From: Bacteroidota bacterium
Lineage (GTDB): Bacteria > Bacteroidota > Bacteroidia > JABDFU01
Reading direction: 5' to 3'
Assembly: GCA_016183775.1 (NCBI GenBank)
Contig: JACPDY010000005.1
Location: 1 to 64,000 of the forward strand
Length of the DNA: 64,000 nucleotides
Shown: positions 1-40,700 of the stretch, in pieces
Layout of the letters: the number at the start of each line of letters is the position of its first letter
Position numbering within the stretch: the first letter of the stretch is position 1
Made by a program: the position numbers and the translations under genes
Notes under the pieces: model-generated
Told to the model about the DNA's origin: nothing
The model's database searches: none
The model's input: the letters and a program-made list of their open reading frames with translations, nothing else

Positions 1-3000
1 GATTTGAGATCTGAGATGTTGTACCTCCATTGCTCCATGCGAATGTATAACCCGGATTTCCTCCGACTCCTGTTGCGGTTGCTGAGCCTGTCGAAGCACC
101 GCTACACGTTATATTTGTTGCAGTTGTTGTTACAGTAACAGGAGGATAAATTGTTACAACCGCGGTTGAAGTGGATGTATTCCCTCCCGCATCTCTTATT
201 GTAACCGTATAAGTTGTTGTTGATACAGGGCATGGACTGATATTTTGTGTTGTCGCACCATTACTCCATGCATACGTATAGGGAGTTGTTCCACCTGCAC
301 CACTTGAGTTTACAGTAGCACAAGTACCAGGGCATACCGAACTGCCGGTAGCAGTTACAGAGGGGCCTGTAGAACAATTTATTACAGTTACCGTACTGTT
401 AACAATAGTATTACACCCATTACCTGCAACAGTATGTTGAATATTGTAGGTACCAGCCGTTAAAAAAGTATAGGAGAAATTTGTAGTGGTACCGCTTACA
501 TTTGCAGGTGTTATGGGAGATATAACCCAGTTATATGTTATTCCGGCCCCGGGAGGAGTACCTGTATTTGTAAAACTCACCATTGTACCTATGCAAACTG
601 TTCCAGTCGGTGACTGAACAAAAGATGCATTGTTACCCGGTGAAGAAGGTACCACAGCAGTTGCAGTCTGAGAGCAGCCGTAATAATCACTAACTAAAAC
701 TGTATAGGTTCCTGCTGCAAGATTTACAATAGTTGCACCGGTCTGTCCTCCAGGGGCCCAGCTATATGTTACTAAACCTGAATTTCCATTGACTGCTACA
801 TTTGCGCGGCCATTTGTATTACCACATGTGGTAGCAACAGAACTTGCAACCAATGTCATCGGTGGAGGCTTGGCAATGCTTACCGCTTGTGTTTGTGTGC
901 AACCTTTCGAATCGGTTACCGTAGCATTATAGCTTCCTTGTGCCAAACCTGTAACTGTTTGTGCCGTTTGGCCCGTACTCCATAAATAAGTATAAGGCGA
1001 GCTTCCATTTGCAACATTTATTGTAGATGTTCCGGAATTAACGGTACATGACCACTGAGTGGAAAACCCCAAAACAATTGCGGGAGGTTGAGTAATGGTC
1101 ACAATTTGTGTGGAAGTACATCCGCTCGCATCAGTGATCGAAGCTGAATAAGTCCCTGCAGCCAAACCCGTTGCGGTTGAAGATGTTTGACTGACCGGAG
1201 ACCATAAATAAGTATAAGGACCCGTTCCTCCGTTTGCATTCACAGTAGCCGTACCGGTACTTTTTCCATTACAATTTATATTATTTTGGCTGACGGAAGT
1301 TGATAATCCACCCGTTGTACCCGTTATGATAACTGAAGCTGTTAATACAGAGAAACATGTACTTGTAGCGGTTACAGTATATGTGCCTGGACATAAATTA
1401 CTAATCGTGTTTGTATTGCTGTTGCTGTTCAGCGTTTGGTTACCATTGCTCCAGGTGTAATTATACAAAGGCAAACCACAAGTTAAGCTTGCTGTTGCCG
1501 TTGCGTTGCAGGAACATCCGGATGTGTTATTAGTGGATTGTGTTGTTAATGTTACCGGTGAAGGTATGAACTTTACAATGCACCCATCATCCGATTGGCC
1601 TGGATTAGGATTATAATAAGCCCCTCCTCCAGGGTTAACAACAGGATAGCCAACGCCACCAACCCATTCCCCTGCCATGAACAAATTATTATTGCCATCC
1701 ACCGCCAGCCCCTGTCGATGGTCACCTCCAGCACCTCCCATGTAAGAATTCCACAACAGTGTTCCGGAATTGGAAAAACAGGTGATTAACACATCATAGA
1801 GCCCACCTAATGTATTGTCAAAATAATTGGCAGGGCAGAAATTTTGAAAGGTAAAATTGGTGGAAAAAGTTTGAATCGCTACATACACATTCCCGCACAG
1901 GTCAATAGCCAGATTATCAGTATCCATATATACCTGAGAAAACGTCTCGAATTTACTTCCCCCATAAAAAGTCGCCCATTGTCGCTGCCCCGCGTTATTA
2001 AATTTCAGAATGAACGCGTCAGAATTGCCAGCGTAAAACTGGTTATAAGCACCAATACTACTCTGAACCGGGAAATTGGCACTACCGGTCATTCCGGTTA
2101 CAAATACATTTCCGGCAGCATCTGTAGCGATGCAATTTCCTTCGTCAAGGCCCTTTCCTCCATAAAAAGTTGCCCACAGCAATGTCCCTGTGTTATTAAA
2201 TTTCAGAATAAATGCATCACGATTTCCACCACCGTAGCCCAACTGATTATAAGTGCCGGCACCACCGTTTTGAACCAGGAAATTGGTGCTACTGGTATAT
2301 CCTGTCACAAACACATTACCCCAAACATCGGTAGTAACAGAACGTCCCTCGTCCAGGTCACTCCCACCATACCATGTTGCCCAAAGCAACCCGCCCGCAT
2401 TGTTAAATTTCAAAATGAAGGCATCCCTTAAAGCATCACCAGGAACCACCTGATTATAACTGCCAACATTGCTCTGAACGGGAAAATTTGGGCTAGCTGT
2501 ATATCCCGTTACAAATATATTACCGACAGCATCTGTAGTGATGCTATATCCTTCGTCAACGCCAAATCCCCCATAAAAAGTTGCCCACAGCCTTGTTCCT
2601 GAGTTATTAAATTTCAGAATGAACGCGTCTTTCGTTCCACCACCGTGGCCCAGCTGATTATAAGCACCAAAGCTGCTCTGAACCGGAAAATTAGGATTGA
2701 CGGTTTGCCCCGTTACCCACACATTCCCGGCAACATCTGTGGTGATGAAACATGCAAGATCATTCATGTTTCCGCTTCCGCCGTAAAAAGTCGCCCAAAG
2801 CCGTACACCCATGTTGTTAAATTTCAGAATAATTACATCCTCGCTGGATGTTGTACTCCCCTGATAATAAGAGCCAATGCTGCTCTGAACCGGAAAATTG
2901 GTGCTACCAGAATATCCGGTTATAAACAGATTGCCGTTGGCATCGGTAGCCGCAGATGTGAACCCATCAGTGCGATCACCGGAATAATAAGTGGCCCAAA

Positions 3001-3868
3001 CAAGTTGCGGGTCTATTATTAAAGTTTTGTATTTTGAGTTTAAAGTTTCAAGTTGGAAAGAAATTTCGACATTGTGTTTGTCAATTATGGTTTTCTTGAA
3101 ATAGCTCTTTACTTTCGCTTTAGTTTCCTTTACGTATGAGTATGGAGCATTTTCGGTGAGTGTACCCAATGGGGTTGGAATATTTATATTACCACTTCTG
3201 TCAATTGTTAAGGGGTTCTCACTTTCATAAATCAGTTTTATTTGTGCAGGGTCGGCTCCGGGATGCACTATAAAATCGTATTTCATGCCGGTTTTACTGC
3301 TGTTGTAAAACACCCAGTCAATACCGGGATATACATCTTGGATTGTTATTTTTTCATATTGTTTTACGTCGTAAATTCCATCAGGGCAATGTGGATAGAA
3401 ATAATTGAAATGCTCTGCGCTTTCACCTTCTTTAATAATATTTTCTTTTTTTATGCTGCCATCTTTCAAATGCATATTTACCCATGCCATTTCGATTTTT
3501 ATGTTTTCTTCCTCATGCCCGCCATTCATTCTTTCTTGTGTCACACAGAGCCCTTCGGCTTTGCTCAGAAAAGGCTTAATCGAAGAGCTTTGCTCTTCTT
3601 CCGCTTTTACAAACACATAAGTTAATCCGTTTTCAGTTATATAAACATCCATGCCCAAACCCGATGTTTTGAACAAAACAAATGGCAGAGGAATGTTGTC
3701 TGTATTCACCATCTGTCCCTTGTTTTCAAGGAAGTGCAATTGTCCGTGCTGAGAAATCAATTCTTCGGCTTTATAAGTCAAATCCGGATCATGACTTTTC
3801 TTTTCAGCGGAGAAACAATTAATGCTTAACATTAACCAAACAGTCGTATATGAGTATACTGGCTTCAT
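1..3868 (-). CDS. Giant SBBP/SprB-repeat surface protein, C-terminus outside window
   Basis: The reading frame stays open from the ATG at 3868 to the window edge, so at least 1289 codons are present and the C-terminus is missing. Residues 1-21 form a signal peptide ending near CFSA. An N-terminal ENKGQM motif follows at about residue 48, then the GLTYVF and DIYPGIDWV-type motifs typical of SBBP proteins. About 3010-1600 encodes SBBP beta-propeller repeats (WATFYGGS, FILKFNN, GNIYVTG-type blades). About 1560-1 encodes SprB/PKD-like repeats with YTWSNG and GTYTVTVTD-type motifs. By family it should be exported and displayed on the cell surface, with a role in adhesion or gliding inferred. It is divergent from the solenoid gene at 4027. 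A palindrome-rich stretch (3547-3598) lies in frame in the N-terminal linker. Confidence 0.88.
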   Translation of the reverse strand, partial: MKPVYSYTTVWLMLSINCFSAEKKSHDPDLTYKAEELISQHGQLHFLENKGQMVNTDNIPLPFVLFKTSGLGMDVYITENGLTYVFVKAEEEQSSSIKPFLSKAEGLCVTQERMNGGHEEENIKIEMAWVNMHLKDGSIKKENIIKEGESAEHFNYFYPHCPDGIYDVKQYEKITIQDVYPGIDWVFYNSSKTGMKYDFIVHPGADPAQIKLIYESENPLTIDRSGNINIPTPLGTLTENAPYSYVKETKAKVKSYFKKTIIDKHNVEISFQLETLNSKYKTLIIDPQLVWATYYSGDRTDGFTSAATDANGNLFITGYSGSTNFPVQSSIGSYYQGSTTSSEDVIILKFNNMGVRLWATFYGGSGNMNDLACFITTDVAGNVWVTGQTVNPNFPVQSSFGAYNQLGHGGGTKDAFILKFNNSGTRLWATFYGGFGVDEGYSITTDAVGNIFVTGYTASPNFPVQSNVGSYNQVVPGDALRDAFILKFNNAGGLLWATWYGGSDLDEGRSVTTDVWGNVFVTGYTSSTNFLVQNGGAGTYNQLGYGGGNRDAFILKFNNTGTLLWATFYGGKGLDEGNCIATDAAGNVFVTGMTGSANFPVQSSIGAYNQFYAGNSDAFILKFNNAGQRQWATFYGGSKFETFSQVYMDTDNLAIDLCGNVYVAIQTFSTNFTFQNFCPANYFDNTLGGLYDVLITCFSNSGTLLWNSYMGGAGGDHRQGLAVDGNNNLFMAGEWVGGVGYPVVNPGGGAYYNPNPGQSDDGCIVKFIPSPVTLTTQSTNNTSGCSCNATATASLTCGLPLYNYTWSNGNQTLNSNSNTNTISNLCPGTYTVTATSTCFSVLTASVIITGTTGGLSTSVSQNNINCNGKSTGTATVNANGGTGPYTYLWSPVSQTSSTATGLAAGTYSASITDASGCTSTQIVTITQPPAIVLGFSTQWSCTVNSGTSTINVANGSSPYTYLWSTGQTAQTVTGLAQGSYNATVTDSKGCTQTQAVSIAKPPPMTLVASSVATTCGNTNGRANVAVNGNSGLVTYSWAPGGQTGATIVNLAAGTYTVLVSDYYGCSQTATAVVPSSPGNNASFVQSPTGTVCIGTMVSFTNTGTPPGAGITYNWVISPITPANVSGTTTNFSYTFLTAGTYNIQHTVAGNGCNTIVNSTVTVINCSTGPSVTATGSSVCPGTCATVNSSGAGGTTPYTYAWSNGATTQNISPCPVSTTTYTVTIRDAGGNTSTSTAVVTIYPPVTVTTTATNITCSGASTGSATATGVGGNPGYTFAWSNGGTTSQISN

Positions 3869-4026: not shown

Positions 4027-5550
4027 ATGAAGCCATCCGACGAACTATTCAGGCTGATCAAATCGTTAAGCAAGGCCGAAAAAAGAGGTTTTAAACTTTA
4101 TGCCGCCCGCTATACCGGCAGCAAAACGTATTTAAAACTATTTGAAGCGATCGATAAACAGAAGGAATACAATGAAGATAAATTGCTGAAGCTTTTCGCG
4201 AAAGAAAAATTCTCACGGCAATTACACAGGTATAAAAACTATTTAACATCGCTTATCCTTCAATCGCTGGAGATGCAATACGCAGCTGATTCTGTTGATT
4301 CCATATTAAAGCATAAAGTACTGCAAATTGGCATACTCTATAAAAAGGGCCTATTTGAACAATGCAGAAAATTAATTTCAAACGCTAAAGAACTCGCCCA
4401 AAAACGAGAAAGTTACCTCATCCTACTGGAATTATCACATTGGGAATTCCGGCTCACAGCAATCCAATCGTATTTGAATGTGGGCGAAAATTATATTGTA
4501 AATTTATTTAACACAGAGTTCAATACGATAGAAGAATATAAAAACTACAGGGAATATTCTGAAATTGAAGGAAGGGTATTTAACATCTTTAAAAAAGAAG
4601 GCTTAATGAGAAACCCCGATTACTTAAAGCAACTTAACAAACTTGCTTCACATCCTCTATTGTCTGATGAAAGAAGTGCCACCAGCTTTATTTCTAAAAT
4701 AAAATTTCATTCCATTCATGTTGCCATTTGTAGTATAACACATAATTTCAAAAAAATCATTCTTCATACGAAACGCGTGGTTGAACTGATCGAAGAAAAT
4801 CCTTACCATATCGGTGACAACAAATCGAATTATATCATTTGTCTGGCCAATCACTTTAACTCCCAGGTGAGCCTGAACCGCTTTAGTGAGGCATTGCAAA
4901 CAGTAAAAAAAATAAAAAGCGTTCCCGTTATTGCGCAGGGCGACAAAGAAATGGCCACGCTGATGACGATCGACAAGGAATTATTTTTGCATTACAAGAT
5001 GGGGGATTTTGAAAAAGGAAAAGCCCTGTTGAATTCAATTGATAGGGAATATTTCGAAGGTATTGTTATAAAATACAAAAGGGAATCCGAAGTTTTTTTC
5101 AAAATTGCCAATATATATTTTGGCATGGGCGAGTTTCAGAAAGCGAGTATCTATTCAAAAAGGATCATCAATACTATATTCACAAATCAAAGAAAAGACA
5201 TTGAATGCTTTTTCCGGATATTCTTGCTGATCATTTATTATGAAATGGGAGAACAGGATCAATTGGAATTTTCGATCAGGTCTGTTTACCGGTTTTTATT
5301 GAAACGTGACCGGCTTTACAAATTTGAAGACGCGATCTTAACCTTTATCCGTAAAAAGATCATCAAATTAAACACACACGAGGAACTCCGAAAAGCCTTT
5401 ATCGAACTGAAGGATCAATTGGAAAAGATCACCAAATACCCGTTTGAGAAAACGGCACTGGATTATTTTGATTTTATCAGCTGGTTGGAGAGTAAAATTG
5501 AGCGACGGCCTTTTGCTCTTGTGGTAAAGGAAAAGGCAAAAGTTGGTTAG
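4027..5550 (+). CDS. Solenoid (TPR-like) protein, LIKSL-EKR / FDFISWL family, copy 1
   Basis: 507 residues with no signal peptide or membrane segment, so probably cytoplasmic. It is the first of four paralogs in the window. Shared landmarks are an N-terminal LFRLIKSLSKAEKRGFK block (residues ~7-23), YLKLFEAIDKQKEYNE (~35-50), a helical middle with TPR-like pairs (GMGEFQKASIYSKRI), a YRFLLKRDRLYKFED block near residue 425, and the C-terminal YFDFISWLESKIERRPF signature (~475-491). The alpha-solenoid fold is inferred from the spacing of helices; no catalytic motif was seen. The gene starts 158 bases from the divergent giant SBBP gene. Function is unknown; a role in controlling or assisting the neighbouring surface protein is suggested only by repeated pairing. 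Confidence 0.85.
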   Translation: MKPSDELFRLIKSLSKAEKRGFKLYAARYTGSKTYLKLFEAIDKQKEYNEDKLLKLFAKEKFSRQLHRYKNYLTSLILQSLEMQYAADSVDSILKHKVLQIGILYKKGLFEQCRKLISNAKELAQKRESYLILLELSHWEFRLTAIQSYLNVGENYIVNLFNTEFNTIEEYKNYREYSEIEGRVFNIFKKEGLMRNPDYLKQLNKLASHPLLSDERSATSFISKIKFHSIHVAICSITHNFKKIILHTKRVVELIEENPYHIGDNKSNYIICLANHFNSQVSLNRFSEALQTVKKIKSVPVIAQGDKEMATLMTIDKELFLHYKMGDFEKGKALLNSIDREYFEGIVIKYKRESEVFFKIANIYFGMGEFQKASIYSKRIINTIFTNQRKDIECFFRIFLLIIYYEMGEQDQLEFSIRSVYRFLLKRDRLYKFEDAILTFIRKKIIKLNTHEELRKAFIELKDQLEKITKYPFEKTALDYFDFISWLESKIERRPFALVVKEKAKVG

Positions 5551-5650
5551 GAGTTGACGGTTGTTGGTTCAACACTTGATCTTCTTGCAAGGAACACTCC
5601 GCCTGACAACTATTTATCAACCGAAGCTTTAGTACAGGTTGAACATCTAC

Positions 5651-8600
5651 TCAAGGTGCACTAAGACTGACATTCACACTGCAACCGTTTTTGTCTTTAA
5701 TATTTATAATGTAATTGCCGGGGCAAAGTTGGTTCTTATACCTGTTAATATATCCATCCGGCCAGGTATATGAATAAGGGCTCGTTCCCCCTGTTGCATT
5801 TATGAGTATCCATTCTTTGCAACCACAGCCTGCACAGTTGGCGGTGCCTTTTGACACTTGCCCAGTTAAAGTCGGCGGTGAAATTATTCCGGCGGTAGAA
5901 GTCGCAACACAACCTTTTGAATCGGTTACTGTAACAGTATAAATTCCTGAAACCAAACCAGAAACTGTTGAACCTGAAACCCCGTTACTCCATACATATA
6001 CATAAGGTGTGCTTCCACCGCCAGGGCTTGCGGTTGCCGAGCCTGTCGAAGTACCGCTGCAGCTTATGTTGGTTGGAATTACGGTTACACTAACCATGGG
6101 ATTAACGGTTACAACAGCTACTGAAGTGGCTGTCAATCCTGCATTGTCGGTAATTGTTACGGTGTAATTGGTTGTACTGGCCGGACAGGGGTTAATACCC
6201 GCTGTTGTTGCGGCTGTACTCCACAAATAAGTATAAGGGGCTGTACCACCTGCTCCTGTTGCTGTTAAGGTGGGACAGGGAGTTACACCGCTGCATATTG
6301 ATGCTGAATTTACGTTGGCGGTAATACCTCCGCATATAGTACCTGTTATAACAAAAGTTGCCGTTTGTATTTGATTACAGCTACTGGCAACTGTTACAGT
6401 ATAGCTACCCGGACATAAACCGGAAATGGTGTTTGTTGTGTTTGTGCTGTTTAAAGTAGTGCTGCCATTACTCCAGGTGTAATTATAATTTGGTTCACTA
6501 CAGGTTAAGTTAATTGTTGCACTGCCGCTACATGGGGTGCAGGTGGTGTTATTGGCCTGTGATTTAGTAATAACAGGAACAACCGGAATAAATTTTGCAA
6601 TAAAAGCATCGTCGTCCAAACCTGCCCCCGGAAGATTTTGAAAGAACACACCTCCTCCGGGATTTATTAAAGGGAGAGTAGATATATTGTAAGTAGCGCT
6701 GCCATAGTGAGGAAACTCTCCCGCAAGAAAAATATTGGATTTATTATCGATAGCCAAAGCTCCGCGAAAATCGTTATCACCATTACCTCCAAAGTAACTA
6801 CACCATAATAGTTTACCCTGGTTAGTGAATTTAGTTATTACTATATCGTCTGAAATACTTAAGCCCGCATATGTCTGCGTCCCCTTAAAGTAGGAGCCAC
6901 AGGAAGGGTTATATACATCTATTCCGGAAGGCGGGGAATTATATGATGTACGCGTATTAAATGAAATATATACATTTCCACACAAGTCAGTTTCTATCCG
7001 GTCATAATCATTAGTTTGTGTATCCTCGTTATTGCCGCCAAAGTAGGTAGCCCACTGCCTGATACCATTCAGATCAAATTTCAATATAAAACCATCTCTT
7101 AAACCACCGATCAAATTATCAAAATAATTGCCGGAATTAAGTAATGGAAAATCAGTTGAATAAGTAATTCCGCTAATGAAAATGTTACCAAAAATATCAG
7201 AAGCGATTCCCATTCCTGACTCACCTTTGCTTCCGCCATAAAACGTTGACCACAAACGATTTCCTGCATTATCGAATTTTAGTATAAAAATATCCCCGGT
7301 TTCAATCGGAAAGAACGCAGTTGGAGCGGTTCCTCCTCCATAACTTCCATCCGAATATGCGGCACCGTTGGTTTGAATCGGAAAATCAGGTGAAGTAGTG
7401 TTACCTGTAACGTATAAGTCATTATTACTGTTGATTGTTAAAGCATTTCCTTCCTCAACAGCGCTGCCGCCATAATAAGTTGCCCATAAACGGGTGCCAA
7501 CATTATTAAACTTCAAAAGAAACGCGTCACTGGCTCCATTGAGCGTCCCATCAAAAAATGTTCCGGAGTTCTGTACAGAAATATCCGCAGAAGTCGTTTT
7601 TCCGGCAATATAAATATTATTTAAAGCATCAGATTTTATACAGCGGCCTTCGTCAACCCCGCTCCCCCCGTAATAGGTGGCCCATAAACGGCCACCGGTA
7701 TTACTGAACTTCAGTATAAAGCAATCACTTACCCCACCAATTGAATTATCAAAATAAGTGCCGGCATCAAAAACGGGAAAATTAGCGGAGTTTGTACCAC
7801 CGGTGAGATAGACGTCCTGATTGGAATCTATTCTTATGGAAACTCCAAAATCATTATTGCTTCCGCCGTAATAGGTACCCCATAGCAACACCCCATTATT
7901 GTCAAACTTAAGAATACCGGCATCGTAATTCCCTCCGTTGACGGCCTGAAAGGCTCCTGGAACAGGGATCCCGGTTGAATAAGTGTATAACGCTGCAAAC
8001 AAATTGCCTGCTGCATCAACATCCAAAGATCTTATTCCGTCCCAACCATTGCCGGCATATAATGTACACCAGGTAAGCTGAGGATCGATTACAATTGTTT
8101 CGGTGTTACTATCGAAAGAAGTAATTTTTTGCAAGCCACCCAATTGAAATGAAACCTCAACATTGTGTTTACTTATTTGTTTACTGCGGAAATGGCTTTC
8201 AATAGGAACACTGCTTGCACGGTAATAAGTATATGGAGCATTTTCGGTTAAGATGCCTAAAGGTGTTGTAACATGAATATTTCCTCCATTATCAATTGAA
8301 AGCGGCTCCTCGCTTTCATATAACATCCGAATAGCCGATGGATCGGCTCCGGGGTTTACGATGAAATCATATTTTACTCCTTTCATACCCGTAGTGTATA
8401 ATACCCAGTCAATACCCGGATACACATCTTTCACTGTTAACTTCTCATATAGCCTTACATCATAAATACCATTTGGACAATGATGGTAAAAAAAGTTGAA
8501 ATGTTCCCTGCTCTCTCCTTGTTTAACAATATTGTTCTTGTTGATTTTTGCTTTAACCAGTCGCATGTGAAACTGAGCCATTGCAAAGGTCTTATTATCC

Positions 8601-8911
8601 TCCGCAGCCATTTCTGTAACAAAATTCCCCCCATCCTTCATATCATTATTGGTCTTACTTTCATTTCCCTGTACAAATACATAGGTAAGACCCTTTTCTG
8701 TGATATATATATCCAATCCTTGTAAACTTGTTTTAAACAGAACATCAGGAACGGTATTACCATTAACATCCGTCATTTGTCCTTTGTTTTCGATGAAGGC
8801 TGGTGTTTTTTGTTTTGAAAGCAAAACGTCAGCACTGGGATGTTGAGCGTAGCAATATCCCATCAAGAGCATAAATACATTAAATATGGATATCTTTTTT
8901 GCTTTACTCAT
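5651..8911 (-). CDS. SBBP/SprB-repeat surface protein with Cys-containing conserved tail
   Basis: 1086 residues. Signal peptide 1-22 (ends GYCYA), FIENKGQM at ~39-46, SBBP beta-propeller blades from ~275 to ~770 (for example WATYYGGSGVDEGRCI, DAFLLKFNNVGTRLWATY), then SprB-like repeats (NYTWSNGS, SGLCPGSYTVTV). It ends in a tail at ~1015-1086 with CAGCGCKEWI, WPDGYINRYKNQLC and NGCSVNVSLSAP. The tail closely matches the C-terminus of the protein at 24989 and is not a recognisable type A or type B T9SS sorting domain. The gene is divergent from the solenoid gene at 9148. Its ATG overlaps the stop of a gene remnant (ATGA). Predicted extracellular; adhesion is an inference. Confidence 0.88.
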   Translation of the reverse strand: MSKAKKISIFNVFMLLMGYCYAQHPSADVLLSKQKTPAFIENKGQMTDVNGNTVPDVLFKTSLQGLDIYITEKGLTYVFVQGNESKTNNDMKDGGNFVTEMAAEDNKTFAMAQFHMRLVKAKINKNNIVKQGESREHFNFFYHHCPNGIYDVRLYEKLTVKDVYPGIDWVLYTTGMKGVKYDFIVNPGADPSAIRMLYESEEPLSIDNGGNIHVTTPLGILTENAPYTYYRASSVPIESHFRSKQISKHNVEVSFQLGGLQKITSFDSNTETIVIDPQLTWCTLYAGNGWDGIRSLDVDAAGNLFAALYTYSTGIPVPGAFQAVNGGNYDAGILKFDNNGVLLWGTYYGGSNNDFGVSIRIDSNQDVYLTGGTNSANFPVFDAGTYFDNSIGGVSDCFILKFSNTGGRLWATYYGGSGVDEGRCIKSDALNNIYIAGKTTSADISVQNSGTFFDGTLNGASDAFLLKFNNVGTRLWATYYGGSAVEEGNALTINSNNDLYVTGNTTSPDFPIQTNGAAYSDGSYGGGTAPTAFFPIETGDIFILKFDNAGNRLWSTFYGGSKGESGMGIASDIFGNIFISGITYSTDFPLLNSGNYFDNLIGGLRDGFILKFDLNGIRQWATYFGGNNEDTQTNDYDRIETDLCGNVYISFNTRTSYNSPPSGIDVYNPSCGSYFKGTQTYAGLSISDDIVITKFTNQGKLLWCSYFGGNGDNDFRGALAIDNKSNIFLAGEFPHYGSATYNISTLPLINPGGGVFFQNLPGAGLDDDAFIAKFIPVVPVITKSQANNTTCTPCSGSATINLTCSEPNYNYTWSNGSTTLNSTNTTNTISGLCPGSYTVTVASSCNQIQTATFVITGTICGGITANVNSASICSGVTPCPTLTATGAGGTAPYTYLWSTAATTAGINPCPASTTNYTVTITDNAGLTATSVAVVTVNPMVSVTVIPTNISCSGTSTGSATASPGGGSTPYVYVWSNGVSGSTVSGLVSGIYTVTVTDSKGCVATSTAGIISPPTLTGQVSKGTANCAGCGCKEWILINATGGTSPYSYTWPDGYINRYKNQLCPGNYIINIKDKNGCSVNVSLSAP

Positions 8912-9027
8912 GGCGCGGTCAGGTTAACATTTACGCTACACCCATTTTTATCTTTAATATTTACTGTGTAATTACAAATATTGAGATTACACAATGACAA
9001 TCTGTATTGATTCTTAAAATTAGAGCG
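8908..9027 (-). pseudogene. Remnant of the C-terminus of another SBBP-family protein
   Basis: Read on the minus strand, about 39 codons before a TGA at 8908-8910 encode FKNQ, then NYTVNIKDKNGCSVNVNLTAP and stop. This is the same tail as in the proteins at 5651 and 24989. The segment corresponding to RYKNQLCPG is altered, and no coding match continues upstream. The stop overlaps the start of the next gene (ATGA). I read it as the 3' scar of a lost tandem copy, left by deletion between paralogs. It is too short to be a functional gene. Confidence 0.75.
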
Positions 9028-9100
9028 ATTTTATCGCCAATACAAACAAGACTTGTAGTATTATTACAATCATTAATCATAAATATAATATATAAATGCC

Positions 9101-9108
9101 TATATTTG
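9101..9108 (+). promoter_or_regulatory. Possible -7 promoter element upstream of solenoid copy 2
   Basis: TATATTTG matches the Bacteroidota -7 consensus TAnnTTTG, 40 bases upstream of the ATG at 9148. No convincing -33 TTG partner was seen at the usual distance, so this is tentative. Confidence 0.3.
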
Positions 9109-9147
9109 ATTGATTTAAGCATATTTTAATGTTTAAATATTACAATC

Positions 9148-10677
9148 ATGAAATTTAATAATTCAAAGGAAACTTTGTTTGACTTGATCAAATCGCTTAC
9201 TCCAAGTGAGAAAAAAAGCCTTACACTTTATATAAATTATTATTCAACCGGGGACAAAAAATACCTCCACCTTTTTGAAATGATTGATTCGACTCATAAT
9301 TACGATGAACGAATTATAGGTCAAAAACTGAAAGACAAAAATATATTAACTCCTTTGCCTAAAATAAAAAACTATCTATTGGCACTGATCCTGAAGGCTT
9401 TACGATTTCATTATTCCGGAAAATCAATTGAAGGAAAAATAAGGGATTATTTTGCAGATATAGAAATTTGTCACAATAAAGGATTGAAAACGTTAAGAAA
9501 TAACATAATAAAAAAAACAAAAAAGCTGACAGGGCAATTTGAAAAACAGGAAGCACGATTACAGGTACTGAATAAAGAATGGGGCTTGGGATTAAATCTG
9601 CAGAAAGACACAGCCCTGCTCATTGAACAAGAGCAAATTTCAGTACAAATAGCATCAGTCAGAACATACAAATCCCTGATCTATTCCGTTCATAAACTAT
9701 TAAAACATGGGGATATCAGGGATAAAATGATAAAAACAGAATGGATAAAAATAATAAAGCATCCATTGATGATTAGTACCAATGAGCCGACTGATTTTGA
9801 ATCAAATTATTATTATCACACAATTTATAATGTGTATTACGAAAAATTAAATGAATTTAAGAAGGGACGAGATCACCTGGAAACATTATTGAAAAACATG
9901 GAATCCCGGCCGGAACTTCTAATGGAGCATGTCGCGAAATACATGAGCGTGCTGAATAATTTTGTGGCCATATTATGTGCGAATAAAGAATTGAACAGGG
10001 CAGAGGACATTTTAAATAAATTATTGCTCATTCAAAACTGGAAATTGGGCCAGGAAGAAAAAAATATACTTACAGATAACATTACAATCGCATACAGTAA
10101 TCTTTTATTTGGATATTTATTAGTAAAGGCGTTTGACGCCGGAGAGCGCATGGCACAAGATGCAATTTTTTTTATGCAAACCCATAATGCGAGGGTGGTA
10201 TACAAAACAGCGCTGTTTGTCAATCTGTCGGGCTTATACTTATACACCGGCAATTATTATCAGGCTCGTATTTGGAATAACAATATACTAAATGAATTAC
10301 CCGGAAATTGCAGAGAAGGTGATTATGTTATTGCAAAAATATTAAACCTGATTATTCATTATGAACTTGAACAAGACGACCTTTTAACCTATATAGTTCG
10401 TTCTACATATCTTTTTTTATTGAAAAGGAAGCGATTATATAAGACAGAAGATGTGCTTCTGCGTTTTATCCGGAACAAATTACCCGGATCAAATTCACGA
10501 AAAGAACTCATTAATTTTTTTAAAGACTTAAAAATGGAACTTCAGGAGATCACCAAAGATCCTTTTGAAGCAAAGGCCCTGGAGTACTTTGATTTCATTT
10601 CCTGGCTAGATAGTAAAATACAAAATCGCCCTTTTATGGAAGTGGTGAAAGAGAAAGCGAGACTGTCCGCAAAATAA
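9148..10677 (+). CDS. Solenoid (TPR-like) protein, LIKSL-EKR / FDFISWL family, copy 2
   Basis: 509 residues, no signal peptide. Family landmarks are LFDLIKSLTPSEKKSLTLY (~10-28), KYLHLFEMIDSTHNYDE (~38-54), YLFLLKRKRLYKTEDVLLRF near residue 430 and YFDFISWLDSKIQNRPF (~480-496). The region between the conserved ends is the most divergent of the four copies. It is transcribed away from the giant gene at 5651-8911, with 236 bases between starts, part of which is the remnant of another giant gene. The ccm genes follow 47 bases downstream on the same strand, but nothing links the functions. No enzyme motif was found; function unknown. Confidence 0.85.
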   Translation: MKFNNSKETLFDLIKSLTPSEKKSLTLYINYYSTGDKKYLHLFEMIDSTHNYDERIIGQKLKDKNILTPLPKIKNYLLALILKALRFHYSGKSIEGKIRDYFADIEICHNKGLKTLRNNIIKKTKKLTGQFEKQEARLQVLNKEWGLGLNLQKDTALLIEQEQISVQIASVRTYKSLIYSVHKLLKHGDIRDKMIKTEWIKIIKHPLMISTNEPTDFESNYYYHTIYNVYYEKLNEFKKGRDHLETLLKNMESRPELLMEHVAKYMSVLNNFVAILCANKELNRAEDILNKLLLIQNWKLGQEEKNILTDNITIAYSNLLFGYLLVKAFDAGERMAQDAIFFMQTHNARVVYKTALFVNLSGLYLYTGNYYQARIWNNNILNELPGNCREGDYVIAKILNLIIHYELEQDDLLTYIVRSTYLFLLKRKRLYKTEDVLLRFIRNKLPGSNSRKELINFFKDLKMELQEITKDPFEAKALEYFDFISWLDSKIQNRPFMEVVKEKARLSAK

Positions 10678-10724
10678 ATGTTAGCTGGCCGGCAGCTGAC
10701 AAAAACAGTATCTTTGAATTGAAA

Positions 10725-11384
10725 ATGTTTATACGAGAGCTAAAAGCCCTGCTGGCAAAAGAAATAAAACTCGAATTCCGCCATAAGTACGCGTTGAACG
10801 GAATACTGTTGTATGTTATTTCAACTGTATTTATAAGCTACCTTTCATTCAAACAAATTGTTGACCCTCCTGCCTGGAACGCCTTGTTCTGGATCATTAT
10901 GCTGTTTGCATCGGTGAATGCCGTATCAAAAAGCTTTATGCAGGATAGCCGCGGACTGCAGCTTTATTATTACACGCTTGCGAGTCCACAAGCTGTTATT
11001 CTTTCAAAAATTATTTACAACGCGTTATTGCTGCTTTGCATATCACTTATATGTTATACGTTTTACTCCTTGTTCATCGGAAACATTGTCCAGAATCAGA
11101 TCTTGTTTCTGACAAGCCTTACATTAGGCAGTTTTGGTATCTCATCTATTCTTACTCTTGTATCAGCTATTGCCGCTAAAACAAACAACAACTTCAGTTT
11201 AATGGCTGTGTTAAGCTTCCCCATAATGGTGCCTTTACTTATTACCCTAATGAAAGTTTCCAAGGACGCAGTCGATGGACTTGCATTTTCGGTAACCTAC
11301 TCTTACCTGCTGGTACTTACCCTGTTAGACCTTATTGTAGTGGCACTTTCCTATATGTTATTTCCGTACCTTTGGAAGGATTAA
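10725..11384 (+). CDS. ccmB: Heme exporter protein CcmB
   Basis: About 219 residues from the ATG at 10725 (a TTG lies six bases upstream in frame). The N-terminal LKALLAKEIKLEFRHKYALNG and six hydrophobic segments match CcmB, the membrane subunit of the CcmAB ABC complex of cytochrome c maturation system I. In studied systems that complex uses ATP to release holo-CcmE from CcmC. The conserved QDSRGLQLYYYTLASP loop is present at ~67-82. It is the first gene of a ccm run. The ATPase gene ccmA is not adjacent and not in this window, so it would have to be encoded elsewhere. Confidence 0.9.
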   Translation: MFIRELKALLAKEIKLEFRHKYALNGILLYVISTVFISYLSFKQIVDPPAWNALFWIIMLFASVNAVSKSFMQDSRGLQLYYYTLASPQAVILSKIIYNALLLLCISLICYTFYSLFIGNIVQNQILFLTSLTLGSFGISSILTLVSAIAAKTNNNFSLMAVLSFPIMVPLLITLMKVSKDAVDGLAFSVTYSYLLVLTLLDLIVVALSYMLFPYLWKD

Positions 11385-24786: not shown

Positions 24787-25069
24787 TTATATGAGAGGTA
24801 TTCAATAAAAGTAATAAATATAAAAATATTAAATAAGTATTTTTCCGAAACAGGTATATCAATTATGAAAAATAATATTTACTTCTAAATCATTACTTTT
24901 AAATCAACTTGAGTTGCTTTCAGGTTCGCGAAAAACTAACTTTGAAACAATCAGTAATTTAAAAAAATAAGCGCTATCAAGTAACAAATTGACATCTATG
25001 ATATTCGGCAATGTCATAAAAACAATACGTCATGATTCTATTTCATTAACAATGGAGAAATTTGCTTTA

Positions 25070-28000
25070 ATGAACGAACATAAGAAGAAATTGCTGCCTG
25101 TGCTTTTTGTATTCACAGGAATTTTTACATATGCCGGCAATGACAATATCTCTTCCTTTCAAAAAACACAGATGGCTGCTTCTATTCACAGCCAGTCAAT
25201 TCAGTTTACGGAGAACAACGGACAAATGGCAGACATGTCAGATAATCCCATACCACAGGTATTGTTCAAGGTCGAAGTTCCCAAGTTAAATATCTGGTTA
25301 ACCACACAAGGGCTAACCTATCAATTTTTAAAAATTGTGGAAAATGAAGAGGAATTGGAAAAATTAAATACAGGTTCCAACTCTGTTTCCGGAATTTTTG
25401 ATCAAAATTCAAAAATCGAAAAATCCGAATGGCACAGGGTTGATATGATCCTCAAGAATGCCGCTATTAAAAAGGAAAACGTGTTCACAGAAGGTAACGT
25501 AACACAAGGCAAGCACGACTATTTCCTTGGACATTGCCCTGAAGGTATTCTTGATGTAAAATCCTATTCAAAAGTTATAATTAAAGAAGTTTATAATGGC
25601 ATTGATTGGATTTTATATGCGTCCTCAGGAGGAGGCTTGAAATATGATTTTTTTGTACATCCCAACGCTGACCCCAATCAAATAAAACTGATTTATGAGG
25701 GAAGCGGAAAACTAAACGTTGGTACTGATCAAATACACTTTGGTAATGAATTAGGTGAAGTAATCGAGGGAACGCTATTGTGTTATCAGAATAGCGCTTC
25801 ACCCGACATAGAGCATACTGCAATTGAAAGGATAGTGATTGAGTCTGAATACAAAGCGAAAAAAACAATCAATAAAATCAGCAACGGTTTTTCTTATGAA
25901 GTTGCAATTGCTTTAAGGGAGTATGATGTAAATGACACTCTCATTATAGACCCTCAACTATATTGGGGAACGTACTATGGCGGAAATAACCTTGACTCTT
26001 TTCAGGATTGTGATGTTGATGCTCAGGGAAATGTTTTCGTTGTTGGCTATACAGCCTCAACTAATTTTCCTACTGTAGTTTTAGGTGGTGCATATAATCA
26101 GACCTTTTCTCCCGACATGTCTGCGAATATTTATAAATTTTCAAACAATGGTCAGTTGTTATGGGTTACCTGCTATGGACCGGTTGATACTGATATTGGT
26201 GTTTCCCGCAACGTAACTGTTGATATTTTTGGAAATATTTTTGTTGTAGGAGAATTTGGTTCCTATGGAAAAGCAACAAGTTTTCCTTTATTTAATTCGG
26301 GGACATATTTTGAAGCTCCTTCCGGAGTTAGTGACGATTGCACATTTATATTGAAATTTGACAACAATGGAAACCGGCTTTGGGCTACTGGTTTTGCATG
26401 TGGAAATTCGGAAGGAAGGGGGATTGTAACAGATCTATCCGGTAATGTTTTTGTAACAGGAACAACTTGGGGTATAATTCCATTACTTAATCCCGGAGGG
26501 GGAGCATATTACCAGAATACAGTGGGTGGTAATGTAGACGGATACTTTGCTAAATTCACCAACAACGGGACACTACTTTGGTGTACCTATTTTGGAGGAG
26601 ATAATCAGGATGTTCCAAATGAGTTATGTAGAGATAATATTGGAAATATATTTGTGGTAGGAAGTACCAGATCCGCATCTGCTTTTCCGTTATTTAATCC
26701 ATCCAATGGATCTTATTTTGATAATACGCTGGGAGTTTTTGAAAGTTCATTTGTGGCAAAGTTTTCTTCTGTTAACACTAATCTATTGTGGTCAACTTAT
26801 TTCGGTGGTAATAGTTCGGGAGATATATTATATGAAGTGACTTGTGATAACAACAATGCTGTTTATATTGCCGGCTATGTAAGAAGCACAAATCTTCCCG
26901 TAATAAACCCGGGCAATGGTGCATACATTGACAATATGCTTGGTGGTGCCAGTGATGCATACATTGCGAAGTTTAGTCCGGGTGTTCATTCTCTTTTTTG
27001 GAGTACTTACTACGGTAGCACAGGTAATGAGAATTATTTCGCTGTATACGAACGAATGGCGCTTACAACAGATAATTGCGATAATGTTTATATAGGCGGA
27101 CTTACCTATGGCACAAATGATTTTCCAATTTACAATCCCAATTGCAATAATTACTTTGTTGGGCACAATACGGCCGCTGGCGATGGGTTTATTGTAAAAT
27201 TTAATTCAGAAGGTGTAAGGCTTTGGAGCACCCTTTTTGCCGGTGGAACAGATAACTTAAATCATTTTTCGTTCTGCCAATCTATGGTAACAGATAATCA
27301 AAACAATTTATTCGCGGTTGGAGAATGGAAATACGGAGTAGTACTCAATGGGTTAGCAAATCCGGGCGGAGGCGCTTATTATGACAATACATTTAATGGG
27401 GGTGATGATGCCTGTATATTAAAATTTACTCCGGAAGAGCCAGCCATAACTTCCTCATCAACAAGCAACACTTCAGGTTGCTCATGCAATGGCACAGCCA
27501 CTATTACAATCAACTGCGGAAACTCTTCATATAACTACACCTGGAGTAATGGCAGCCGAACCCTTAACTCAGTTAGTGCTTCAAATACTATTAGTGGCTT
27601 ATGTCCGGGAACTTATTCCGTTACTGTTATAGCATGTGATACTTTAACAGCTTCAGTTGTAATAAACGGAAGCACAGGGGGGCTAATTGCTTCAGTTAAT
27701 CAATTTGATGCTACATGTAATGGAGGAAATGATGGTTATGCTACAATAACAGCTTCAGGAGGAAGTCCACCGTATAATTACGTCTGGAACAATGGCCAAA
27801 CCGGGATAACAGCTACCGGGCTATCAGCAGGTTCCTATTCATGCACAATAACTGATGCAAGTGCTTGTACTTCAATACGATTTGTAAATATTAGCCAGCC
27901 TACCCCAATTGCAATGTCCTATTTAACTAAATGGTCATGTGTAACAAACTCCGCAAATGTAACGGCCCTTGTTAGCAATGGCACTTCGCCATATATTTAT

Positions 28001-29278
28001 TTATGGAGTAATGCTCAAAACACTCAAACGGCAACAAATCTTGTCCAAGGAAATTACACTATTACTGTGACAGACTCAATAGGTTGCCTTAAAACAGGTA
28101 CGATTAATATCACTCAACCATTACCTTTAAATTTAACTACCAGTTCCAATAATACCTCCTGTGGAGGTAACAGCATCAGTGTATCCGTAACAGGCGGGAG
28201 CTTCCCTTATTTATATGCATGGAGCAATACTTCTCAAATTACCTCTACCATTCAATCGGTTTCTGCCGGAACTTATACAGTAACTGTTACAGATGCCAGC
28301 GGTTGTACAAAAACTTCAACTGCTAGTGTTGGAGCCTCTCCTGGTACAATTGCTACATTTGAAGTATTTCCGAATGATACAGTTTGCCTTGGTTCTTTGG
28401 TTAATTTTATAAATACCGGCACAATGCCGGGAGTGGGAATTACATATACCTGGACAATTGCACCTGTAAACGTAAGTGGAACAACTACTGATTTTTCATA
28501 TCTCTTTTCATCTGCGGGAACCTATTCTATTACTCACACGGTAGCCAAAGGAGGGTGCCCCTCCAACTCTACAAGAAAGGTTACGGCAATTAACTGTTCC
28601 GGACCTGTTGTTACAACTACAGCTAATTCAATTTGTCCGTCATCCTGTGCAACTGTTACTTCAAGCGTTGCCGGTGGAACCAGTCCATATACTTACAACT
28701 GGAGCAATGGCGCCACAATACAAAACATTAATCCATGTCCTGTTTCAACAACTACTTATACCGTAACAATTAAAGATACCGGGGGAAATACTTCTACCTC
28801 AATTGCAACTATAACCGTTAATCCTGCTGTTATTGTAACTATCCAGCCAACCAATATCACCTGCAGTGGGGTTGCAAATGGAACTGCAATTGCAAATCCA
28901 GGCAATGGAACTCCGGCATATACCTTTAACTGGAGTGGAGGAGTTCCGGGTTCCGGGTTCCAGGTTTCGGGTTTATCTGCCGGAACCTATACTGTTACTG
29001 TAACAGACAGCAAGGGTTGTACTGCCAGTTCTAGTGCTACCATTTTTTCCCCTCCTCCTTTAAGTGGCCGGTTTTCCATGGGAACATCGGATTGTGCGGC
29101 TTGCGGTTGCAAGGAATGGATAATGATTACCGCCAGCGGCGGAACAAGCCCCTACTCCTACTCCTGGCCCGATGGATATATAAACCGGTATAAAAATCAG
29201 CTCTGTCCGGGCACATACACCATAAATATTAAAGACAATAACGGTTGCAGTATAAATGTTAATTTGAGTGCGCCCTGA
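25070..29278 (+). CDS. SBBP/SprB-repeat surface protein with Cys-containing conserved tail
   Basis: The frame is open from an ATG at 24989. I prefer the ATG at 25070 (or 25052) because MNEHKKKLLPVLFVFTGIFT then forms a normal signal peptide; this gives about 1402 residues. An ENNGQM motif (Lys to Asn variant) and GLTYQFLK are followed by SBBP blades (WGTYYGGNNLDSFQ, LLWSTYFGGNSSGD), then SprB-like repeats (YTWSNGSRTLNS, SAGTYTVTVTDASGC). The last ~70 residues (CAACGCKEWIMI, WPDGYINRYKNQLC, NNGCSINVNLSAP) match the protein at 5651. No type A/B sorting domain is visible. It is divergent from solenoid copy 3 and ends at a strong hairpin. Confidence 0.86.
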   Translation: MNEHKKKLLPVLFVFTGIFTYAGNDNISSFQKTQMAASIHSQSIQFTENNGQMADMSDNPIPQVLFKVEVPKLNIWLTTQGLTYQFLKIVENEEELEKLNTGSNSVSGIFDQNSKIEKSEWHRVDMILKNAAIKKENVFTEGNVTQGKHDYFLGHCPEGILDVKSYSKVIIKEVYNGIDWILYASSGGGLKYDFFVHPNADPNQIKLIYEGSGKLNVGTDQIHFGNELGEVIEGTLLCYQNSASPDIEHTAIERIVIESEYKAKKTINKISNGFSYEVAIALREYDVNDTLIIDPQLYWGTYYGGNNLDSFQDCDVDAQGNVFVVGYTASTNFPTVVLGGAYNQTFSPDMSANIYKFSNNGQLLWVTCYGPVDTDIGVSRNVTVDIFGNIFVVGEFGSYGKATSFPLFNSGTYFEAPSGVSDDCTFILKFDNNGNRLWATGFACGNSEGRGIVTDLSGNVFVTGTTWGIIPLLNPGGGAYYQNTVGGNVDGYFAKFTNNGTLLWCTYFGGDNQDVPNELCRDNIGNIFVVGSTRSASAFPLFNPSNGSYFDNTLGVFESSFVAKFSSVNTNLLWSTYFGGNSSGDILYEVTCDNNNAVYIAGYVRSTNLPVINPGNGAYIDNMLGGASDAYIAKFSPGVHSLFWSTYYGSTGNENYFAVYERMALTTDNCDNVYIGGLTYGTNDFPIYNPNCNNYFVGHNTAAGDGFIVKFNSEGVRLWSTLFAGGTDNLNHFSFCQSMVTDNQNNLFAVGEWKYGVVLNGLANPGGGAYYDNTFNGGDDACILKFTPEEPAITSSSTSNTSGCSCNGTATITINCGNSSYNYTWSNGSRTLNSVSASNTISGLCPGTYSVTVIACDTLTASVVINGSTGGLIASVNQFDATCNGGNDGYATITASGGSPPYNYVWNNGQTGITATGLSAGSYSCTITDASACTSIRFVNISQPTPIAMSYLTKWSCVTNSANVTALVSNGTSPYIYLWSNAQNTQTATNLVQGNYTITVTDSIGCLKTGTINITQPLPLNLTTSSNNTSCGGNSISVSVTGGSFPYLYAWSNTSQITSTIQSVSAGTYTVTVTDASGCTKTSTASVGASPGTIATFEVFPNDTVCLGSLVNFINTGTMPGVGITYTWTIAPVNVSGTTTDFSYLFSSAGTYSITHTVAKGGCPSNSTRKVTAINCSGPVVTTTANSICPSSCATVTSSVAGGTSPYTYNWSNGATIQNINPCPVSTTTYTVTIKDTGGNTSTSIATITVNPAVIVTIQPTNITCSGVANGTAIANPGNGTPAYTFNWSGGVPGSGFQVSGLSAGTYTVTVTDSKGCTASSSATIFSPPPLSGRFSMGTSDCAACGCKEWIMITASGGTSPYSYSWPDGYINRYKNQLCPGTYTINIKDNNGCSINVNLSAP

Positions 29279-37734: not shown

Positions 37735-40700
37735 ATGCAAAAACAAAAGCTGATAAAACACCTGAAAAAAAACTGCCTTGTTTTCATACTGCTTATTTCA
37801 GTTTGCCACATTTTCGCTGCCAGATCAACCGACTCCGGCTTGCTCAAAGAAGCAAAACAACGGATAAAAAATAATGGGATCAGGTTCCGGGAAAACAAGG
37901 GACAGCTGTCTGATATGAATGGGAAACCTGTTCCTTTTGTCCTGTTCAGCGCGAAGACCCCCGGAGTTAATGTTTATGTCACCGAATCAGGGTTAACTTA
38001 TCAAACAATTAAAAAAACAACAGAAGAAAACAGCCCAAAAGAAAACAGTTCCGATCGAATAAATCCTTCCCGTGAACAAACCAATTCAAAAACAGAATGG
38101 GAACGTTTTGATGTAGAATTAAAGGGAGCAAAGATCAGGTCCGAAAATATGATCAGGGAAGGACAAAGTGAAGCGGATCTCAATTTTTTCTATCCGAATT
38201 GCCCTCATGGAGTTTATGGTGTAAAGGAGTATGACAAGATCACCATAAAAGACATTTATCCCGGAATTGATTGGGTATTATACAACTCAACTGAAACCGG
38301 ATTTAAGTATGATTTTGTTGTGCATCCCGGTGCAGACTGCGATCAGATAGCGCTGGTTTATATAACAAAACATCTGTTACAAATAAACAGCAACGGACAG
38401 ATCGAGGTACAGACCGCTTATGGTGAAATAATTGAGAATGCCCCGGTAAGTTATCAACGTAACCGAAATATCGGATCAGCTTTTAAGATTACCGGTCGGT
38501 CTGAGATAAGAAAAAAAGGTGATAATGGTTATGCAACTCAAATAAGCATTGGTCTCAACAAAAATCAAATAGATCCCAAAGAAGAACTTATCATTGATCC
38601 ACAACTGGCGTGGTCTACATTATATGGCGGGGACGATACCGATTTCGGAATGTCGATCGACACCGATCAGAATGGAAATGTATTTATTGCGGGAATGATA
38701 GAATCTAATTTACCGGGTACCTTCCCCTTATACAATTCAGGAAGTTCTTTCTTCCAGGGATCTCATTCAGGAGGAGTTCATGATCTGTTTATTTTAAAAT
38801 TTACAAACACCGGCGCTCTTGCATGGGCCACCTATTATGGTGGTTCTGAACAGGACGAAACGGCATTTATTACAACCGATAATTTCAATAATATTTTTAT
38901 TACCGGCTATACCTATTCCCCTGATTTCCCGGTTCAATCCTCCGCGGGAGCTTATAATCAGCCTGTCAACTCCAATTCACCGGCATCCGCGGATGGTTTT
39001 ATTCTGAAGTTCAATAACTCCGGAACAAGATTATGGGCTACCTTTTACGGGGGAAGCGGTTTTGACTGGACATCGGGAATCGCAGTGAATAATTCGGGTG
39101 ACATTTACATCACCGGTTATACTACTTCCAATAATTTCCCAACCTTCAACCCGCTGAACGGAAGCTATTTCCAGGGAGCCCCCGTTAATACCGGATATTT
39201 ATTTATACTAAAATTTACCAGTAGCGGTGTGCGATCATGGGCAACCTGCTATGGTGGAACTTCATATAATACAGGAGCTTCGATAACCTGTGACAATAGC
39301 GGAAATATTTATGTAACAGGTCGCTCACCGGGTTTTCCGGTAATAAACAACACTTCAAATCCGTCTATCTATTCACAAGCCCCCGGCGGAGGCATGGATG
39401 CATTTATTTTGAAATTCAATTCAGGTGGAAACCTGATGTGGGCTACAAATTACGGCGGCAGCGACGATGAATGGGGCCTTACCATCAAAGCGGATAATTC
39501 AGGGAATGTATTTGTTTGCGGCGAAACCAAATCAGCGGATTTTCCGGTGAAGAACGCGGGAACATTTTACCAGGGCAATAATGCCGGAGGGTACGACGCC
39601 TTTATTTTAAAATTTGACAACAATGGCAATCTCGTATGGGCCAGTTATTTTGGAGGAAACGCGGATGAATCCTGGAGTCTTTTCGGAATATATGACAACC
39701 TTGAAATTGATAATTGCGGGAATGTTTACATGAGCATGATATCGGGATCTTCAAACCTTGTTTTACAGAATAATATATCCGGCTCGTACTTTGACAAATC
39801 ATTTAATGGAAATTTTGACGTTGTTCTACTTATGTTCAGCAACACGGGAAATTTATTGTGGTCTACATTCTGGGGCGGAGCCAATCATGATCTGTGGAGA
39901 GGGGTTGCTTTGGACAACAACGACAATCTTTACATTACGGGCTCCTTTAATCCCTTCAATGTAAGTTCCGCAAGCTACCCTTTGCTTAATCCCGGCGGTA
40001 CTTATTACTTCGATGGCAATTTTGGATCAACTATTTTCAATAGCGAAGATATTTATTTAGCTAAATTCTCAAAATGTGCCCCTCAATATCAGCAATCACA
40101 AACAGACCCCATTTCATGCCAGGTTTGTAACGGGACCGCAAGTGTAACTGTTAATTGTGGCATACCTGATTTTACCTATAAGTGGAGCGATGGTACAATA
40201 CAAAATAATGTAACCACAAATGTAAGTAGTATCAATAATTTGTGCCCGGGCAATTATTGGGTAGAAATCAAAAGCAATTGCTTAATTCAAGATACTGTCT
40301 TTTTTTCAATGTCAGGATTCACACCCGGATTTACCACTACTGCAATTGTAAATAATGCACCAAAATGTAACGGGCAAACAGGCTCAGTAACAGCTTCAAT
40401 TACGGGAAACAGCGGACCTTATACTTATAGCTGGAGTACGGGATCAACAGGAAGCACTTCCTCAACTACAATTATATTAAACAATGTACCGGCAAACAAC
40501 TATGCAATAACTGTAACGGATGCTAATGGATGCAATTTAACAGCAACCGCCGCAATTACAGAACCAACAATGGTTACAGCCACTATTACATCGACAAACA
40601 ATTTATGTGCCGCCTCAGCAAATGCTTCAGTAAATGTATCTGCCGGCGGAGGAACACCCGGATATACATACGCCTGGAGCAACGGCGCAAACACACCAAC

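Follow-up and report, generated by a model that had tools for sequence, protein, structure and literature searches.

Surface-type proteins of the Bacteroidota are known that combine DUF7948, SBBP and SprB repeats. This domain content is common to two giant genes, giant1 and a giant at 25070-29278 (24989-29278 in another delimitation), in the window analysed here, which is the whole stretch of 64,000 nucleotides (G000:C5:1-64000) from a genome of 4.54 Mb in 164 contigs (G000). The type B sorting domain TIGR04131 is present in the window proteins at 37735 and 42049 and absent from these two giants, both of which end in a 65-aa tail of the family's own. The genes divergent from the giants resemble the BT_2802 family (NCBIfam NF058569): A and B align across nearly the whole model, but score 194 and 131 bits, below the curated whole-protein cut-off of 550, and to our knowledge the definition of that family does not include pairing with giants. 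Among the literature titles seen, none concerns this giant-gene family. The closest likeness for the feature described below is pseudogene debris in tandem arrays of paralogs, in which a truncated 3' end is left between genes and parallel cases vary in length and stage of decay. The present locus (Table 1) differs in that the scar occupies precisely the leader of the following paralog, with its stop overlapping the start of that gene, and in that a single genome holds four tail scars in equivalent positions.

Table 1. Features of the locus and of related loci; gene order in the window is giant0 (-), A (+), giant1 (-), scar, B (+), ccmB (+)
Feature	Location	Strand	Remarks
giant0, further giant	2..3868	-	open at window edge; divergent from A
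Gene A, BT_2802-like paralog	4027..5550	+	ortholog of the gene preceding ccmB in G002
giant1	5651..8911	-	DUF7948, SBBP propeller repeats, SprB repeat, conserved 65-aa tail
Scar of the probably lost giantX (locus C5:8908)	8908..8974	-	last 21 codons and stop; TGA overlaps giant1 ATG
Possible further 12-13 tail codons, not secure	8975..9012	-	with 3-codon insertion
Remaining intergenic region	8975..9147		presumed promoter region of B and of the probably lost giantX, now upstream of giant1
Gene B, BT_2802-like paralog (under curated cut-off)	9148..10677	+	divergent partner
3' end of B	10555..10677	+	matches 3' end of the A ortholog of G002, with ccmB behind; module recombination border near last 70-130 bp
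ccmB	10719..11384	+	syntenic anchor
Other scar loci	C5:90055; C133:22314; C60:2555		
36-bp block, G000	C144:75344-75375; C144:87372-87403; C118:5295-5326	-	
36-bp block, G002	C263:1500; C408:7216; C419:1414; C150:3315; C333:810		

The 66-67 nt of the scar correspond to the 3' end of the giant-gene family, that is, 21 residues (NYTVNIKDKNGCSVNVNLTAP) and a stop. Minus-strand positions 8973-8908, in the frame ending at 8908, translate to NYTVNIKDKNGCSVNVNLTAP, and the C-terminus of giant1 is NYIINIKDKNGCSVNVSLSAP. The overlap with the giant1 start at 8911, claimed in the initial annotation, is confirmed: the scar TGA (8910-8908) and the giant1 ATG (8911-8909) share bases as ATGA. The match was assessed with a DNA profile of 126 family tails, with the scar excluded (140 were found, of which 14 were dropped for length or lack of a stop). 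This profile was run on 1.06 Mb, comprising 59 blocks made up of 76 stretches around tail and BT_2802-like matches together with the window, and recovered 8908-8974 at an E value of 4.2e-13 (48.1 bits). When 8908-9147 was set against 5000 dinucleotide shuffles of itself, the real sequence scored 47.6 bits and the best shuffle 4.4 bits. Likewise, a protein alignment scored 105, as against 44 or less in 3000 shuffles, and a repeat finder given no hint paired 5648-5716 with 8905-8973 at 75%. The shuffles rule out a chance match as the origin of the scar.

How far the match extends is a separate matter. The initial annotation put the remaining tail at about 39 codons; the tail end is indeed present, but the secure match is 21-22 codons and the rest is not secure. 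With the 19 residues upstream of the last 21 included, the protein profile scored 41.8 bits instead of 38.0, a gain equalled by 85 of 3000 shuffles of that added part. A narrower test of this upstream part, in its own frame only, gave 0.4% of 3000 shuffles, while a wider one, taking the best of three frames over 173 bp, gave 18% of 3000. An extension of the tail to about 9012, through a 3-residue gap and with N.Y...LC-like letters, is possible. As that annotation also held, nothing matches further upstream: no giant match was found in 8912-9147 beyond the tail end, and the sequence preceding the scar holds neither an intact reading frame nor a gene body. No start remnant of a lost giant is recognisable at the locus, and a 53-codon frame at 9122-8961 did not match the N-terminus of any giant. 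Each of the 21 scar residues occurs at the same position among the 126 intact tails, and the scar preserves D, C and P, the three residues that never vary in those tails. Because these residues are kept even though third positions in the family are near random, the scar is little decayed and the probable loss was fairly recent.

The family to which the scar belongs is large. A whole-genome search with the 65-aa tail gave at least 150 scored candidates, and at least 140 tails, counted from alignments of 60 residues or longer with an identity of at least 55%, lie in the 1.06 Mb, where their open reading frames sum to 427 kb; the 5' end is closed in 124 of 140, and among these 124 a length of at least 800 residues is reached by 107. 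BT_2802-like partners or pieces number 71-93 in the genome, and the giants are arranged in tandem and head-to-head with them. Two tandem junctions show a 4-nt overlap, resting on GTG starts that may be miscalled. In a tail search of 60 genomes, this one included, 18 gave some match at 1e-10, and counts above 13 were seen only in G000 (at least 103), G002 (52) and G003 (18); G001, G004 and G005, of the same genus and all incomplete, gave no tail match. The expansion of giants and BT_2802-like genes is thus seen in three of six genomes of the genus. Across the 126 tails residues are 74% shared on average, whereas four-fold sites are 0.39 identical, against 0.26-0.34 from codon usage. Conserved residues with near-random third positions point to protein-level selection on an old family and fit it better than gene conversion, which we rejected as the main cause of tail conservation.

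The conserved tail is not a curated T9SS type A or B sorting domain. Among four giant C-termini scanned, TIGR04183 reached 19.2 and 19.7 bits in two (cut-off, 23) and was weaker or absent in the others, the matches below cut-off sitting on the repeat that precedes the tail and not on the tail; TIGR04131 was not listed for any of the four. Because it is strictly conserved at the C-terminus, the tail may be a candidate surface-sorting or anchoring signal. A model of the last 160 residues (mean pLDDT, 81) contains strands only, and a fold search with the tail model returned generic Ig-like beta-sandwich matches, of which the best was GhpA of Aureispira. The N-terminus of giant1 has a signal-peptide-like stretch, judged by eye.

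Similar scars exist elsewhere in the genome. Seventy-one BT_2802-like genes have their N-terminus present, and 44 of these face an intact giant head-to-head within 600 bp. A tail scar lies between the two genes in 4 of the 44 pairs, the window locus included (E values, 2e-17 to 2e-7), always in the order BT_2802-like gene, gap, tail scar and giant start; three weaker matches, all with E above 1 and one lying between genes 617 bp apart, were left out. At C133:22314-22451 an in-frame start and about 28 signal-peptide-like residues are joined directly to 42 tail-side residues and a stop. At C5, about 89.87-90.2k, a start with a signal-peptide-like run, containing one stop, precedes the tail. These start remnants look like giant starts from their place and appearance, their signal-peptide character being judged by eye; no particular giant was matched in a short-peptide search. 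A 168-bp insert interrupts the tail scar of the second locus. This insert (C5, about 89.87-90.1k, beyond the window) has terminal inverted repeats (GAATTAGGCACTTA), shows what looks like a 10-bp target duplication and is single copy in the blocks. The giants that follow the other scars are not the ones closest to giant1, and the loss events therefore look separate.

We consider it probable that the scar is a remnant of gene loss, in which a giant at the head of a tandem pair (giantX) was deleted between giant1 and B. giantX would once have lain between these genes on the strand of giant1, heading a tandem pair (giantX, giant1) that would have shared the B/giantX divergent promoter region. The deletion, which we infer to have been a single one, would have begun at or near the start of giantX and spared only about its last 22 codons. 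The promoter region would then have abutted the old tail and giant1 would have become the neighbour of B, as the anatomy and the parallel loci suggest. The remnant of giantX would now form the 5' leader of giant1, the start codon of which overlaps the dead stop, and giant1 would use the promoter of giantX. Loss of a head giant explains the tail, its position, the normal gap and the parallel loci. The view of the initial annotation that a tandem paralog was lost is well supported, since short-spaced tandems are common (33 of 78 consecutive same-strand giant pairs lie less than 200 nt apart) and three other scars exist, two with a start-like remnant.

With the scar subtracted, the gap to B is 173 bp (8975-9147), which is normal for the family: 37 scar-free divergent gaps span 121-457 bp (median, 197), and 12 of the 37 are 173 bp or shorter. 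This stretch has no similarity to the giants or to other sequence in the 1.06 Mb (best other E value, 0.53). The proposal that the regulatory region lies inside old coding sequence therefore holds for the 66-67 nt adjoining the giant1 start, that is, the giant1 leader, and not for 8975-9147, with its normal length and lack of a homolog. A sigma-70-like scan of 8975-9147 found no promoter. Of 41 pairs, 14 have the Bacteroidota -7 motif TAnnTTTG directed towards the BT_2802-like gene and 10 have it directed towards the giant, with no fixed place; these are raw counts, from which no shared promoter motif can be read. Upstream regions of the nearest paralogs of B gave no alignment, a result of little weight as the start positions taken for C43 and C93 were wrong. 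A weak stem-loop (9024-9038, minus strand) followed by a T-rich run lies just upstream of the scar in the giant1 leader (one found, against 0.1 expected in shuffles).

The main rival to deletion is replacement by exchange with another array, which we regard as unlikely. giant1 would have been copied from another tandem array, bringing along the final codons of the gene that preceded it there, and would have ousted the resident head giant next to B; the scar would then be the tail of that preceding gene, and this place would never have lost a giant with such a tail. Such an event would fit the mobility of the giant1-scar-B module at the genus scale. The whole module is absent at the syntenic place in the sister species G002, where the order (L103) is giant (-), A' (+), ccmB and ccmC, with A', 86% identical to A, directly before ccmB. 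Over the final 70-130 bp of the gene and the gap to ccmB, B is closer to A' and its gap than A is, and this resemblance indicates that exchange at conserved 3' ends does happen. The difference from G002 could have arisen through insertion of the module where A ends, or through A/B recombination that removed it in G002, and no outgroup decides. However, the C133 and C5:90k loci keep an apparent gene start before the tail, and plain deletion is the simpler account. Nor is there a donor array with the 5' flank of giant1 in the 1.06 Mb, where exact matches to 8881-9010 stop at 28 nt.

A comparison of the locus in close relatives, suggested by the initial annotation as a source of an intact extra copy, yielded none: no relative among the genomes examined has an intact giantX between giant1 and B. 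The genus's five other genomes gave no close match to B, the best in G002 and G003 being 32% identical and A' itself, and at L077, L078 and L079 ccmB is present with no match to A or B. In G002 an open reading frame (L103, 9538-9942), which we take to resemble a four-helix S23-type protein, lies between ccmB and ccmC and has no counterpart in the window between 11384 and 11461.

It is very improbable, in our judgement, that the scar has been retained for a leader function, in which a short frame of about 30 codons, starting at TTG, would be translated and its stop overlap would couple the translation of giant1. The ATGA overlap, the open frame with two upstream TTG codons and the slight decay are what such a leader would show, but youth explains the slight decay equally well, there is no in-frame ATG, and the arrangement is not general, the few pairs with a tail fragment having different 5' ends. 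Least credible of all is an assembly artefact, a false join at one of many tail repeats, because even in a fragmented assembly of which a number of contigs end near tails, a longest exact match of 28 nt is short for a false join and three further scars exist.

Deletion of a head giant leaves an ordinary gene-loss scar within an unusual, fast-turning gene family. The scar alone is a small record of gene loss; as a marker, it indicates that turnover in the very large family of paired giants and BT_2802-like genes takes place at the promoter-proximal ends, and this turnover can be measured by counting tail scars. That recurrent head-gene loss acts as a switching device, each deletion handing the promoter to the next giant in the array, seems to us rather improbable. 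If it were so, a one-way advance of cassettes would change the surface protein and the tail scars would record past heads; if head losses change the expressed giant, the array would be a slow surface-variation system.

A second kind of tail-end change was observed. Eight giants from two species carry, at one and the same codon of the conserved tail, a near-identical 36-bp block that folds as a hairpin. In all eight, the block re-creates the last codons of the tail and the stop, and the native tail end, now displaced, follows it immediately. Pairwise identity averages 93% for the blocks, against 75% for the preceding 51 bp and 54% for the displaced ends, the last from an ungapped comparison with one row one base out of register. 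The block was not found elsewhere in six genus genomes or, by exact search, in viral contigs, and it has the look of a mini-insertion that is site-specific, or of a DNA site under constraint. It was rejected as the source of the scar, since at those loci the giant immediately in front of the displaced end is intact. In G000, C19:74-171 and C56:12705-12809 also show a displaced tail end following an intact giant, from which it is separated by a hairpin-like insert of about 55-70 bp.
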